Shown: positions 3,517 through 61,890 of the stretch, piece after piece
How positions within the stretch are numbered: position 1 is the first letter of the stretch
Layout: every line of letters begins with the position of its first letter
From: Haploplasma modicum ATCC 29102
GTDB taxonomy: Bacteria > Bacillota_I > Bacilli_A > Acholeplasmatales > Acholeplasmataceae
Direction of reading: 5' to 3'
Assembly: GCF_000687835.1 (NCBI RefSeq)
Contig: NZ_JHYB01000002.1
Span: forward strand, 1 to 64,000
DNA length: 64,000 nucleotides
Made by a program: the position numbers and the translations under genes
Notes under the pieces: model-generated
The model's input: only the letters and a program-made list of their open reading frames with translations
Told to the model about the DNA's origin: nothing
Databases searched by the model: none

Positions 3517-4647
3517 ATGATTAATTTTAAGAAAATAAATATTGTTTTAGAAAATGAAATTGTTACTTCAAGCTTGAAAGTAACAAACGGAAAAATTGAA
3601 TCAATTGGTAGTTCTAGTGATGAACAAGGATTTGATTTTAGTGACTATTATTTGGTCCCAGGCTTTATCGATCAACACATTCATGGTTCAGCTGGATTTG
3701 ATATTATGGATGGAACATTAGAAGCGTTTGATGAGATGTCAAAATCATTACTTAAAGAAGGTACTACATCTTTTTTAGGTACAACAATTACTCAAAGTTT
3801 TGATAATATTGAAAAGACTGTTCACTTAATGGCTGATGCTAAAGTAAGTGGAGCAAACTTGGTTGGTGTTCACTTAGAAGGACCTTTCCTAAATAAAGTA
3901 TTTAAAGGTGCTCAACCCGAACAATATATAATTCCAACAGATGTTAAAATGTTTGACAAATGGAATAAGTATAAAAATATCAAGATAATCTCAATGGCAG
4001 CAGAAGTTGATGAAGCTTTCAAATTAATAAAACATTGTAGCAAAAATAATATCATTGTTTCACAAGCACATACTAATGCAACATATGATATTTCAAGAAA
4101 AGCAATTGATAATGGAGCAAAAGGATTTACACATGCATATAACGCAATGAGCAAATTACATCATAGAGATATTGGTGTAGTTGGTAATATGTTATTAAAT
4201 AATGATGCATATGCTGAATTAATTTGTGATGGTATTCATGTAAGCAAAGATGCTGTTAGATTACTTTATAAAAATAAGGGTAGAGAAAATATTATTTTAA
4301 TCACCGATAGTATGAGAGCTAAATATTTACCAGATGGTAAATCAGAACTAGGTGGTCAAGAAGTATTTGTTAAAAATAATGAAGCAAGACTTGCTGATGG
4401 TACTTTAGCTGGAAGTATATTAAAAATGAATGATGGCGTAAGAAACATGATTGAATTTGCTAATGTTAGTTTAGTGGATGCTGTTTATATGGCTTCTACA
4501 AACCCTGCAAAGAATTTAGGACTAGATACTAAAGGATCAATAAAAAGTGGTTTTGATGCCGATTTAACGGTTTTAAATAAAGACTTAGAAGTAGTAATGA
4601 CAATAGTTAATGGAAAAATAGTTTATGAAAAGGAATTGAAGAAATGA
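3517..4647 (+). CDS. nagA: N-acetylglucosamine-6-phosphate deacetylase
   Basis: The 376-residue enzyme removes acetate from GlcNAc-6-phosphate to give glucosamine-6-phosphate, the first cytosolic step of amino-sugar use. It is an amidohydrolase: PGFIDQHIHG carries the metal-site His54 and His56, HLEGPF has Glu121, SQAHTNA has His185, THAYNAM has His206, and TDSM has the catalytic Asp264. I start at the ATG at 3517, with AGAAGG eight bases upstream; a GTG at 3508 overlaps that site and is unlikely. It overlaps nagB by ATGA, so the two steps are coupled. Confidence 0.95.
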   Translation: MINFKKINIVLENEIVTSSLKVTNGKIESIGSSSDEQGFDFSDYYLVPGFIDQHIHGSAGFDIMDGTLEAFDEMSKSLLKEGTTSFLGTTITQSFDNIEKTVHLMADAKVSGANLVGVHLEGPFLNKVFKGAQPEQYIIPTDVKMFDKWNKYKNIKIISMAAEVDEAFKLIKHCSKNNIIVSQAHTNATYDISRKAIDNGAKGFTHAYNAMSKLHHRDIGVVGNMLLNNDAYAELICDGIHVSKDAVRLLYKNKGRENIILITDSMRAKYLPDGKSELGGQEVFVKNNEARLADGTLAGSILKMNDGVRNMIEFANVSLVDAVYMASTNPAKNLGLDTKGSIKSGFDADLTVLNKDLEVVMTIVNGKIVYEKELKK

Positions 4648-54742: not shown

Positions 54743-54861
54743 TATTTAATAAAAATTGCAATAAATGGATATAATCTCTAATTAATCATACTATTTATAA
54801 TTAATTCTTTTACTAATCTTTTAAGTTAAAAAATATCACAATTTCACATATTGCACTTGAA

Positions 54862-54885
54862 TGTAAACGGTTTCTATGTTATATT
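54862..54885 (+). promoter_or_regulatory. Catabolite-type operator and extended -10 of the 55-kb ABC operon
   Basis: TGTAAACGGTTTCT (54862-54875) agrees with the cre/LacI-family operator pattern TGWNANCGNTNWCA at all but the last base. It ends two bases before an extended -10, TGTTATATT (54877-54885), so a bound repressor would block the promoter. CcpA or a LacI-type sugar regulator is the likely partner; neither is in the window. Confidence 0.65.
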
Positions 54886-54918
54886 AAAAATAGATAAATA
54901 AAACATAGGAGGAAAAAT

Positions 54919-56293
54919 ATGAATAAAAAAAATAAAATCAATTATTTTGTTATTTATCATGGTGATGGTTACAGTTACTTTAGTATCCTGTAAACCAAAA
55001 GATACAGGGGAAGTCCAAAAAATTATTGAGCAAGCTCAAAAAATGGACAGAAATGAATTGTATGCAAAAGCAATAGAAGAACTTGATGGTAAAACTATGA
55101 CGGCTGTTGGTAATTCAAGTCGTGGTAAAACTGCACAAGAGTATTTTCTTGCATACTTACAAGGAAAGAAGTTTGATTCAGCAACTGGTACTTATGTAGC
55201 AGATGCAAAGATTAGAGAAGAGTTTCCACAATATAAGGAAGATTTTAACGGAAAAATTGACTGGACACAGCCAAAAAACAATCGTATTTTTGCACAAATT
55301 AGTTCAGACGTTAATTCATCAAAACCTCTAATTTCTATGACATTAATTCAAGATGGTAATCAAATTAAGAGTAAAATGCTTGATACAGGTTATCTCCTTA
55401 ATTATATACCAAAAGAATGGGGTGGAGATAAAGCAACTAATGGTGAACCATTTGCTTTACAATCATTAAATAAAGTATTTATGTATAATAATTTAGGCGG
55501 GAAATCGATTAAAAACGTTTGGCAATTTGTAGCTGAAGGGGAAAGACCAATGTTCATGGGATTAGATAGTGAACCAGTTGGTAAAAACTTCTTATACATG
55601 TTAACAAATGAAAAAAATTCAAATATTATGAAAGAAGCATATGATGCATTAACAGCAACAGAAAAAACTTATTTTGATAAAACAATCAAAGAAGTTGAAC
55701 AAGATGCTAAAGATTTAGGTTTAACACATGCAAATGCTAAATATTCATTAGCTTGGATTAAATTATGGGTAAAACAATTTAATCAACAAACAGATGATGG
55801 TCCAATTATGGGTGAATTAGCAAAATCATCATCAGTTGGTGAATCAGGTTTAATCGTGTATTCAAAATTAAGAAGTGTTAATGAAACACCTGAAGTTTCA
55901 AAGAATAACGTAACAGTTGCAGCATATCAAGAAGGTTATGTTGGTATTGGTGGATTTATGTATAAACACTACTTACAAGTTTTAAAAACTTCACCATTCC
56001 CATGGACATCAGTTGCATTTATTCATTTTATGACAACTACACAAGATGGTTTCTCACCTTGGGGTAAAGATATTGGTGGATATGCTTCAGATGATAAAGC
56101 AAATCAAGTTCACTTATATGATGGCCATGAAGATAGAGATAAAAATAAGCCAATCTTATTCCCAGCATTAAATGATCGTGGATATGAATGGTGGTCAGGT
56201 GATACAGCAGGTAAAGGTAGATTAGTAATTGAAGATCCTACATATGTAGCAAGTGTAAGTCATATCGTTGGTGACTGGATCGATTTATTATAA
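54919..56293 (+). CDS. ABC transporter substrate-binding lipoprotein, frameshifted in an A8 run
   Basis: From 54947 to the stop an open frame of about 440 residues encodes a binding protein with a clear lipobox (TLVSC), so the mature protein would sit on the outer membrane face. The only good start, ATG 54919 behind AGGAGG, is out of frame by one base and stops after 24 codons. Removing one A from the run of eight at 54925-54932 joins the frames into a perfect lipoprotein signal (MNKKIKS...LVSC, Cys24). It is either an assembly error, a phase-variable switch or a slippage site. The next two genes complete the transporter. Confidence 0.85.
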
Positions 56294-56362: not shown

Positions 56363-58147
56363 ATGGAACAAAATAAAAATTTTAGTCTATATAGAAACAA
56401 AATAAAAACATATTTCTCAAAACCGGAAAATGCAATCTTAGTGGTTTTAGGTATTTTATTATCTATTTTCACATTAGCACCACTGGTAACAATATTATTT
56501 GATACCTTTAAAATCCATGTTGGGACAGTTGAAACAGTGATATCAGGTAAGACTGGTGGATATTCATTATCCAACTATAAAGATCTCTTATTTGGTAATT
56601 TAAGTAAAAGAAACCTTCGTGAACCATTTATGAACACAATGTATTTAAGTATTTTATCAACGATAATTGCATTAGTTTACGGGGGAATTGTAGCATACTT
56701 AATTACAAGAACTAACATGAAGTTTAAAAAGTTTATTGGTGCTGTATTTATTTTCACATACATCATGCCACAATGGACAATGGCAATGGTTTGGAGAAAT
56801 TTATTTAATAGTAATTTAGTAACAGGTGGGTCAGATGGGGTATTAGCAAGTTTATTTGGGATAAGAGCACCTCTATGGGTTACGACAGGACTGTTTCCAA
56901 GTGCAATCGTACTTGGATTACATTATGCACCTTTTGCATATATATTAATTGGTGGAGTATTTAAAAATATGGATGCTAACTTAGAAGAAGCAGCAACAAT
57001 TCTAAATACACCAAAACATAAGATATTTTTTAGAGTCACATTACCAATGGTCTTACCAGCAATATTATCAACAATCTTATTAGTTTTTAGTAGTTCAATG
57101 GGAAGTTATCCAGTACCACATTACTTGAAATTATCAACACTTTCAACAAGATATGTTGAAATAGCGGCTCAAAGACCAGGATCAGCAAGTATTTTATCAG
57201 TTATTATGATTTTAATTGGTATTACAATCTTAACAGTAAACCAAAGAGCAACAAGTAGTAGAAAATCATATACAACTGTAACCGGTAAATCAGGTCAAGT
57301 AACAAAAGTTAGACTAGGTAAAATTAGTATGTATACAATACCTAGTGTATTAATTGTACTTACTTTGTTTACAAGTATTTACCCAATTATTGCCTTTGCA
57401 GTTGAAACATTCTTGCAAAACCCAGGAGATTATAGTCAATTTACCTTAAAGTGGTGGATTACTAAAACCGGTGGTGGCGAACAAGGAATGTATGGTCAAG
57501 CGGGAATGCTTTATAACCGTGAAATCTGGGGAGGATTTATTGGATCAATTAGAGTTGCTTTATTTAGTGCCTTTTTTGCAGGGACAATTGGTCTATTAGT
57601 TGGATATGCAGTAAGTAAGAAGCGAAGAAGTAAATATGCAGGTTATGTAAATGCAATTTCGTTTTTACCATATTTATTACCTTCACTATCAGTAGGTGCT
57701 GCATACTTTGTATTTGGTAACATGATAGGACTTTGGGGAACTTATACAATTTTAATTATTGTTGGGACAATTAAATATGTTCCATTTGCAAGTAGAAGTT
57801 CACTTGGTGCAATGATGCAATTAAGTTCTGAAATTGAAGAAGCGGCATATATTCAAAATATTCCTTGGTACAAAAGAATGTTTAGGATTGTTATACCAAT
57901 TCAAAAAACAGCGATATTAAGCGGATATCTCTTGCCATTTATGACGGCATTAAGAGAGTTAACCCTATTTATGCTATTAGTACCACAAGCAATGATTGTA
58001 ACAACTTTACTTGATTATTATGATGAGATGGGATTATATGCTTTCTCTAGTGGAATTAACTTAATCTTAATTGTCTTTATTTTAATCATTAACAAAGTTA
58101 TTGAAACCTTAACAGGTGCAAGTTTAGATAAAGGAATCGGAGGATAA
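56363..58147 (+). CDS. ABC transporter permease, two fused permease domains
   Basis: The 594-residue protein holds two type-I permease domains in one chain, split near residue 310 by a polar linker (TGKSGQVTKVRLGK). Each half has about six membrane segments and an EAA loop: EEAATILNTPKHKIFFRVTLP in half one and EEAAYIQNIPWYKRMFRIVIP in half two. Fused permeases of this sort belong to the Fbp/Afu-like group for iron or hexose-phosphate. The catabolite-type operator upstream favours a sugar or sugar phosphate, but this is inference. GAAGGTGAG precedes the ATG. Confidence 0.9.
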   Translation: MEQNKNFSLYRNKIKTYFSKPENAILVVLGILLSIFTLAPLVTILFDTFKIHVGTVETVISGKTGGYSLSNYKDLLFGNLSKRNLREPFMNTMYLSILSTIIALVYGGIVAYLITRTNMKFKKFIGAVFIFTYIMPQWTMAMVWRNLFNSNLVTGGSDGVLASLFGIRAPLWVTTGLFPSAIVLGLHYAPFAYILIGGVFKNMDANLEEAATILNTPKHKIFFRVTLPMVLPAILSTILLVFSSSMGSYPVPHYLKLSTLSTRYVEIAAQRPGSASILSVIMILIGITILTVNQRATSSRKSYTTVTGKSGQVTKVRLGKISMYTIPSVLIVLTLFTSIYPIIAFAVETFLQNPGDYSQFTLKWWITKTGGGEQGMYGQAGMLYNREIWGGFIGSIRVALFSAFFAGTIGLLVGYAVSKKRRSKYAGYVNAISFLPYLLPSLSVGAAYFVFGNMIGLWGTYTILIIVGTIKYVPFASRSSLGAMMQLSSEIEEAAYIQNIPWYKRMFRIVIPIQKTAILSGYLLPFMTALRELTLFMLLVPQAMIVTTLLDYYDEMGLYAFSSGINLILIVFILIINKVIETLTGASLDKGIGG

Positions 58148-58150
58148 AAT

Positions 58151-59749
58151 ATGCCAGAAATTGTATTAACTAATATAACAAAAAGATATGGTGACTACTA
58201 TGCAGTTGACAATTTAAATTTAACCATTGAAAATAAATCATTTGTTACTTTACTTGGTCCATCTGGTTGCGGTAAAACAACAACTCTTAGAATGATTGCA
58301 GGGCTTGAAACACCTACAACTGGAAGAATTGAAATCGATGGATTAACTGTTTTTGATAGTGAAAAAGGAATAAACATTCCGGCTAACAAGAGAAAAGTTG
58401 GATTCTTATTCCAAAATTATGCCCTATGGCCAAACATGACAGTTTATAATAATATTTCATTTGGACTAAAAAACATTAAAGAAGAAATGAAAAACTATGC
58501 TTTTGATTTAATGAAAGTATCAAAAATACTTGATGTTTTAGCAAATGATAAAGATCTATTAACTGTATACTTAGATGCACTTGATAAAAACAAAGAAGTA
58601 AATGAGACAATATTAATCAATAAATTAATTGATAAGTTTGATTTGACAATTTATACAGCAAAAGAAATTTTACAATTAAAACCTTTTGCTGATGATAAAT
58701 TAGTTGACTTAACTCCATTAAAGGAAAAATATCAAGAAGAAAAGAAAGTAATATTAAATAAATATCAAGAAGCAAATAAAGAAATTAATGAAAACTTTGA
58801 GTTTACTGAAAATAATGTTCCAGTAAAAACTGTTAGAAGATTAACAAAAGAAGAAATTGATCTAAAAGTTAGAAGAGTAAGTAGAATTGTAAAAATTGGT
58901 GAATATATGGATCGTTATCCATCAGAGTTATCAGGTGGGCAACAACAAAGAGTCGCAATTGCAAGAACTCTAGCTCCAGAACCACTTGTTTTATTAATGG
59001 ATGAGCCACTTTCAAACTTAGACGCAAAATTAAGATTAGAAATGCGTTCTGAACTACAAAGACTTCATATTGATACCAATTCAACAATTGTTTATGTAAC
59101 TCATGACCAACTAGAAGCGATGACGTTAGCTAATAATATTTGTTTAATTGATAATGGACTTCTTCAACAATATGAACCACCGCTTACAGTTTATAGTAAA
59201 CCTAATAATTTATTTGTAGCAGACTTTATCGGTAATCCTTCAATCAATTTTATTGAAGCTAATGGATCTTTATCAAAAGATGGGACTTTTGAGTTGAAAA
59301 TTTTTGGTAAAGAAAAAATAAAGTTTATTCCAAATGAAAAACTAAATTTAGAAGAAAAACTTAAAGAAATGCGTCATAAAGAAGAAGCAAATTATAAAGT
59401 TGAAAAAATAAACAAAGACTATAAATTTAAATATAATATATCACGTGTTGATGATGAAATAGAATTAGAAGAAAACACAGAATTTGTAGTTGCAATAAGA
59501 CCTGAACATATTTCATTTGTAAAAGATGATAAAGAAACAATTAGTGGGACTGTATATAGTTTAATGCCAGCTGGAATGGAAACAACAATTAAGCTTAGAT
59601 ATGATAACTTTTTATTAACAGGTGTAGTATTTGGAGTTCTACCTTACAAGATTGATGAGAAAGTTAACTTTAAATTTAATACAAATCAACTTTTAATCTT
59701 TGATAAAGAGTCAGGTAAATTAATTACACAAGGATCAATCAAAATTTAA
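58151..59749 (+). CDS. ABC transporter ATPase with a large helical insertion
   Basis: The 532-residue importer ATPase has Walker [11 protein letters not shown] (35-44), a Q loop FLFQNYALWPNMTVYNN, signature LSGGQQQR (260-267), Walker B LLMDEPLSNLD, a switch His in VTHDQ, and a C-terminal TOBE-like domain. About 115 extra residues, rich in Lys, Glu and Leu, lie between the Q loop and the signature (roughly 108-240), where relatives have about 40. A smaller insertion sits in the C-terminal domain. It starts three bases after the permease stop codon. Confidence 0.92.
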   Translation: MPEIVLTNITKRYGDYYAVDNLNLTIENKSFVTLLGPSGCGKTTTLRMIAGLETPTTGRIEIDGLTVFDSEKGINIPANKRKVGFLFQNYALWPNMTVYNNISFGLKNIKEEMKNYAFDLMKVSKILDVLANDKDLLTVYLDALDKNKEVNETILINKLIDKFDLTIYTAKEILQLKPFADDKLVDLTPLKEKYQEEKKVILNKYQEANKEINENFEFTENNVPVKTVRRLTKEEIDLKVRRVSRIVKIGEYMDRYPSELSGGQQQRVAIARTLAPEPLVLLMDEPLSNLDAKLRLEMRSELQRLHIDTNSTIVYVTHDQLEAMTLANNICLIDNGLLQQYEPPLTVYSKPNNLFVADFIGNPSINFIEANGSLSKDGTFELKIFGKEKIKFIPNEKLNLEEKLKEMRHKEEANYKVEKINKDYKFKYNISRVDDEIELEENTEFVVAIRPEHISFVKDDKETISGTVYSLMPAGMETTIKLRYDNFLLTGVVFGVLPYKIDEKVNFKFNTNQLLIFDKESGKLITQGSIKI

Positions 59750-60915: not shown

Positions 60916-61890
60916 TTGAAAGTATTTGATTATGAAGATATACAGTTACTACCAAGAAAATGTATCGTGAATAGTAGAAAAGAATGTGATACAAGCGTTA
61001 AGTTTGGTAAACATAGTTTTAAAATGCCAACTGTTTTAGCAAATATGGAAACAGTAATAAATGAGGATTTGGCAATTTACTTAGCAGAAAATGGATATTT
61101 TTATATTATGCACCGCTTTGATGAAGAATCAAGAATACCATTTATTAAGAAAATGAAAGAAAAAAACTTATTTTCTTCAATAAGTATTGGTGTTAAAGAC
61201 TATGAATATGATTTTGTAATTGAGTTAAAAGAACTAAATTTAGTTCCTGATTATATTACAATTGATATTGCACATGGTCATTCTGATAATGTTATTAATA
61301 TGATTAAACATATTAAAAAGCATTTGAATGATTCATTTGTTATTGCTGGAAATATTGGAACTCCTGAAGCAGTAATAGATTTAGAAAATGCTGGAGCAGA
61401 TGCAACAAAAGTTGGAATTGGACCAGGTAAAGTATGTATTACTAAACTGAAAACTGGATTTGGTACAGGTGGATGGCAATTAGCTGCTTTAGAAAGAATT
61501 AGTAAAGTTGCTAAAAAACCGTTGATTGCTGATGGTGGGATTAGAAACCATGGTGACTTAGCAAAATCAATTAAGTTTGGAGCAACAATGATTATGATTG
61601 GATCATTATTTGCTGGACATGAAGAATCACCAGGACAACTAATTGAAATAGATGGTAATAAATTTAAATCATACTATGGTAGTGCCTCATATAACCAAAA
61701 AGGTGAAATGAAAAATATTGAAGGAAAAGAAATTTTAGTGCCATATAAAGGAAGTATTATTAATACTTTAAATGAGATGCAACAAGATTTACAATCTTCA
61801 ATTTCCTATTCGGGTGGTAAAGATTTAAGTTCATTAAGAGAAGTAGATTTCGTTATTTTAAAAAATTCAATCTTCAACGGAGATTATTAA
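60916..61890 (+). CDS. guaC: GMP reductase
   Basis: The 324-residue TIM-barrel enzyme deaminates GMP to IMP with NADPH, a purine salvage step. It starts [13 protein letters not shown], the GuaC-2 pattern, and has the catalytic Cys174 in [17 protein letters not shown], plus [19 protein letters not shown] and [15 protein letters not shown]. It lacks the CBS domains of IMP dehydrogenase. The start is a TTG with AGGAGA seven bases upstream; no in-frame ATG fits the family. Monocistronic. Confidence 0.95.

Follow-up and report, generated by a model that had tools for sequence, protein, structure and literature searches.

The window, a stretch of 64,000 nucleotides from Haploplasma modicum ATCC 29102, contains an operon with genes for a solute-binding protein, a fused permease and an ATPase. 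The start of the first gene and its control region include the following features.

54857-54885, + strand: promoter-like site, hexamers TTGAAT and TATATT 17 nt apart, the second preceded by TG (consensus scan, 9/12)
54862-54875, + strand: cre/LacI-type operator-like site TGTAAACGGTTTCT, in the spacer of the promoter-like site (13/14 to TGWAANCGNTNWCA)
54907-54912, + strand: Shine-Dalgarno AGGAGG, with a 6-nt spacer to ATG 54919
54919-54993, + strand: short frame of 24 codons from ATG 54919, stop TAA 54991-54993 (sequence)
54923-54988, + strand: signal-peptide remnant in the long frame, (I)KKIKSIILLFIMVMVTVTLVSC, last codon Cys (translation)
54925-54932, + strand: A8 run (read in the sequence), the probable place of a one-base frame change
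54947-56293, + strand: solute-binding lipoprotein frame, whole to its stop, 448 aa from TTG (homologues, alignment, model)
56363-58147, + strand: fused ABC permease with two BPD_transp_1 domains (Pfam PF00528)
58151-59749, + strand: ABC ATPase (Pfam PF00005; separated stretches match UgpC/MalK models)

The 5’ end of the binding-protein gene is divided between two frames. Read directly, the short frame runs ATG AAT AAA AAA AAT AAA ATC and onward, crossing A8. The list of open frames places the 448-codon frame one base off from it. TGA 54920-54922 overlaps ATG 54919 in the long frame, which is open only from 54923. Candidate initiators in the long frame are ATA 54923, ATT, TTG 54947 and ATG/GTG/ATG at 54959-54967. 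No ribosome-binding site at normal spacing was found for any of them in the 54923-54967 stretch. The out-of-frame start at A8 described in an earlier note on this DNA is thus correct to the base.

The long-frame peptide KKIKSIILLFIMVMVTVTLVSC combines a charged start with a strongly hydrophobic core and ends in LVSC. Its best 14-residue Kyte-Doolittle mean is 3.05, compared to 0.49 for the peptide begun at ATG 54919. In the sequence as it stands, ATG 54919 is the only well-placed start, and it does not share a frame with the signal peptide and its lipobox. The two frames would be rejoined, with an acceptable signal peptide, by a change of one base at any point from about 54922 to about 54940. 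A8, as the longest run in this region, is the likeliest site, although the sequence gives no proof of it, and codon usage over 19 codons was uninformative as a locator. The earlier note had claimed that losing one A from A8 gives a signal peptide with LVSC. The peptide in the long frame stands, with the refinement that A8 is one of several places where the frames could be rejoined.

Other lipoprotein genes were collected with a regular expression from stretches that make up about half the genome. One of the 12 matches was judged spurious and 11 were kept. Four besides the binding-protein gene also encode an LVSC lipobox. Most of the 11 have A/T runs of 5-9 near the start. Ten have an in-frame ATG, and the binding-protein gene is the sole exception. 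The locus is distinctive for its frame, not for its run.

The long frame is not a chance frame, since 17 relatives align with it and the inspected ones start in frame. These relatives are 50-69% identical to the window protein along its length, and more than 100 positions are invariant in the 18-sequence alignment. One scan of GTDB genomes found homologues at 184 loci, mostly in Firmicutes and Spirochaetes going by record titles. The window protein has no match in Pfam, NCBIfam or PDB sequences, the last of which was searched with the single protein and with a profile. Its AlphaFold model has a mean pLDDT of 82. Foldseek gave 331 matches at E ≤ 0.001, the best of which are ferric, opine and metal-citrate solute-binding proteins. 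The TM-scores are about 0.4-0.5 by query length and allow a class-level assignment only. The model has a two-lobed binding-protein fold, and permease and ATPase genes identified with Pfam adjoin the gene. The gene product is predicted to be the binding lipoprotein of an ABC importer. Together with loci L003-L082, the window protein belongs to a large and well conserved solute-binding family, in which it is a member outside the reach of Pfam and NCBIfam models. An apparent paralogue sharing its start (L002) was rejected, as it is the start of another gene with like bases and not a copy of the gene.

The rest of the operon is whole. The permease is nearest to the PhnU2 model in NCBIfam, below the cut-off of that model. 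Both the permease and the ATPase carry their Pfam domains and the long frame runs whole to its stop, as expected from the earlier description of these genes as intact. An insertion of about 110 residues, common to relatives, is located between the Walker A and signature parts of the ATPase. It is also visible in L003 (8228-9880) and L094 (691-2322). The operon is similar in predicted fold and make-up to the ferric, opine and metal-citrate systems with a fused permease, including FbpA, FutA, MotA and MctA. However, identity to these proteins is about 10% in Foldseek alignments, sequence searches of Pfam, NCBIfam and PDB do not connect them, and the ATPase of the present operon carries the extra insertion. 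Upstream, the promoter-like site is suggestive only, since such sites are no commoner than in shuffled sequence. Operator-like sites matching at 13-14 of 14 positions are also found upstream of L003, L004, L026, L027, L041 and L076. Such cre/LacI-type sites precede the binding-protein gene in 7 of the 22 operons examined.

All inspected relatives have an in-frame start and a signal peptide, with no A8 near the start. The intact form is therefore ancestral. Among 36 relatives, the start finder gave none for L026 and L041, whose translations show an in-frame ATG and a signal peptide; the start of L003 was assigned by eye. The operon is patchily kept across the family. Neither genus mate, G001 or G002, has the gene. 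In 88 family genomes, clear homologues outside the source genome were found only in G006 and G023. The G023 copy (L095 7374-8948) is decayed: its permease frame is truncated at 524 aa and is not followed by an ATPase frame. Synteny with G001 and G002 is seen downstream of the operon, for the genes at 60916 and 62077 (the latter an ATPase gene). These genomes share neither the operon nor its upstream genes.

The long frame could be expressed in spite of its offset, through slippage of RNA polymerase or the ribosome at the A run, or from a non-AUG start at ATA 54923 or TTG 54947. We consider this quite unlikely. ATA 54923 is 10 nt behind AGGAGG and would give a complete signal peptide, but initiation at AUA is very rare. 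There is no ribosome-binding site for TTG 54947, and a protein begun there would lack the charged start of its signal peptide. A -1 ribosomal frameshift was ruled out because, relative to the ATG frame, the long frame is +1. Endosymbiont genes with an out-of-frame poly(A) in Buchnera and Blochmannia are similar in that the genome is AT-rich, the gene is otherwise intact and the break is in an A run. Those cases rest on transcript data or on ancient conservation of the broken run. Unlike them, no relative of the present gene shares the run. The relatives are in frame without A8, so neither the broken frame nor a slippery run is conserved. Transcription slippage does occur at A/T runs (PMC5574713), but rejoining the frame here needs a -1 or +2 event. 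At such runs in E. coli and Buchnera, single-base insertions dominate slippage and deletions are rarely tied to runs, and that study detected no frame restoration (PMC5574713). The base loss needed at the present locus is thus the rarer direction, which argues against the slippage rescue proposed in the earlier note.

A8 runs are not unusual in this genome. In-frame runs in 474 strong genes include 429 A7, 86 A8, 3 A9, 69 T7 and 8 T8. These genes were chosen by a codon model and cover 605 kb, about half the genome, and the counts are approximate. The window contains fewer A runs of at least 8 than a first-order model expects. Genome-wide, A8 directly follows four GGAG-ATG starts; the three besides that of the binding-protein gene are in frame. 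With 86 in-frame A8 runs and 10 of 11 lipoprotein starts in frame, neither the length nor the placement of the run stands out from the background.

These counts bear on the suggestion that the gene is phase-variable. Slipped-strand mispairing at the A run would switch the lipoprotein reversibly and at high frequency, and the sequenced clone would be in the off state. The precedent in mollicutes is real. The p78 gene of Mycoplasma fermentans (Theiss and Wise 1997, as described in PMC2831843 and PMC3711429) has a seven-base poly(A) at its 5’ end, and loss of one A inactivates it. The present gene is similar: it encodes a lipoprotein of an ABC transporter operon, and its frame is broken by one base at a short 5’ poly-A tract. 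A8 is located between the ATG and the signal-peptide core, where its length sets the frame, and the remainder of the gene is intact. By analogy, the gene may work like P78. However, absent mismatch repair and an outstanding run, which would support this, are not features of the present genome. P78 switching was demonstrated among clones, whereas the present gene is known from one sequence, in a genome that has mismatch repair and in which this run length is common in intact genes.

Mismatch repair is present in this bacterium. MutS scores 934 bits, over the cut-off, in an open frame of 845 aa, and MutL is also over the cut-off in an open frame. With both intact, a hypermutation background of the kind caused by absent mismatch repair was not found. 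Mycoplasmas are without MutS and MutL, whereas functional mismatch repair is ascribed to A. laidlawii (PMC4007778). The presence of mismatch repair makes high-frequency switching less likely. In addition, only one of the 11 lipoprotein genes in the half-genome sample is affected, and no set of similarly switched lipoproteins was found among them. The run is kept in no relative, A8 is common within genes, and the other A8 starts of the same kind are in frame. We regard a phase-variable lipoprotein of the P78 type as unlikely. The narrower reading, a reversible A8 on/off switch of a nutrient-binding lipoprotein in an Acholeplasmataceae-like bacterium with mismatch repair, is slightly less likely still.

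Other genes of this genome are also broken. We searched for such breaks in about half the genome. The glmU gene (G000:C2:326197-327532, minus strand; L116, L131, L132) is split at an A7 run into two overlapping frames, which cover profile positions 1-177 and 175-449. G001 has it whole; in G002 the part covered by the contig is unbroken. An in-frame TAA at L109 16263-16265 (G000:C2:120263-120265) divides the gene for an M32 carboxypeptidase (carboxypeptidase Taq), both halves of which match Pfam PF02074. Two further candidates, L096:994 and L101:1424, turned out to be normal genes. A weak case is an HD-domain (HD-GYP-like) gene that may have lost its tail to an in-frame stop at L124 4578-4580; the stretch behind this stop gave no profile match. 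Transposase-like frames in L110 and L111 resemble insertion-sequence genes. Those on the minus strand of L111, at about 3880-4450 in locus coordinates, contain a TGA in frame and are overlapped by a second frame; they are probably an insertion sequence.

An assembly or sequencing error is the real alternative that the earlier note took it to be. The A run would have been called one too long, and the gene would be intact in the organism. The sole defect is one homopolymer base in an otherwise whole operon. The second homopolymer break is in glmU, a normally conserved gene, and both breaks could be errors. However, runs in this assembly are mostly in frame, with two broken against the hundreds counted above. 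The M32 nonsense break cannot be a homopolymer error, and it indicates real private decay in the genome. We place an error second to a null allele and hold it to be rather unlikely.

We favor, with somewhat better than even confidence, an ordinary recent loss-of-function frameshift at the start of the solute-binding lipoprotein gene in the sequenced strain. It is preferred to a switch because nothing points to a dedicated on/off mechanism. The split of glmU at A7 and the nonsense break in the M32 gene suggest that private gene decay is under way through more than one type of mutation, and a frameshift fits the patchy loss of the operon in the family. The mutation is probably recent, since the remaining 448 codons are undamaged. 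The same lack of decay elsewhere in the gene counts against a null allele, as a switch, rescue or error would explain it equally. It also counts against a null allele that both homopolymer breaks are in A runs, where assembly errors occur too. The on/off switch proposed in the earlier note is not supported, given the abundance of A8 in intact genes, the single lipoprotein affected, the presence of mismatch repair, the relatives without the run and the other private breaks, one of them by nonsense.

Under a null allele, replication slippage in the A run most likely added one A, going by the inferred direction and site of the mutation. Ribosomes starting at ATG 54919 would yield a 24-residue peptide only, and little or no lipoprotein would be expected at the membrane. 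The permease and ATPase have separate starts; they would be left without their binding protein, and the importer would be impaired. Going by the fold, this importer would be ferric, opine or metal-citrate-like. A8 would revert at the usual homopolymer rate, like any A8, with no sign of selected switching. The pattern agrees with a survey of frameshifted genes by GeneTack, in which singletons are attributed to recent indel mutation or sequencing error (PMC3711429). As in those singletons, one genome has one broken gene with whole homologues, and we see no substantial difference.

As a null allele, the frameshift is of little import, one more private loss among the genes of a small, AT-rich genome. 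It does call for caution, as a switch should not be read from a single frameshift at a homopolymer. If switching were true, it would extend P78-type switching beyond mycoplasmas and indicate that A-run contingency works despite mismatch repair.
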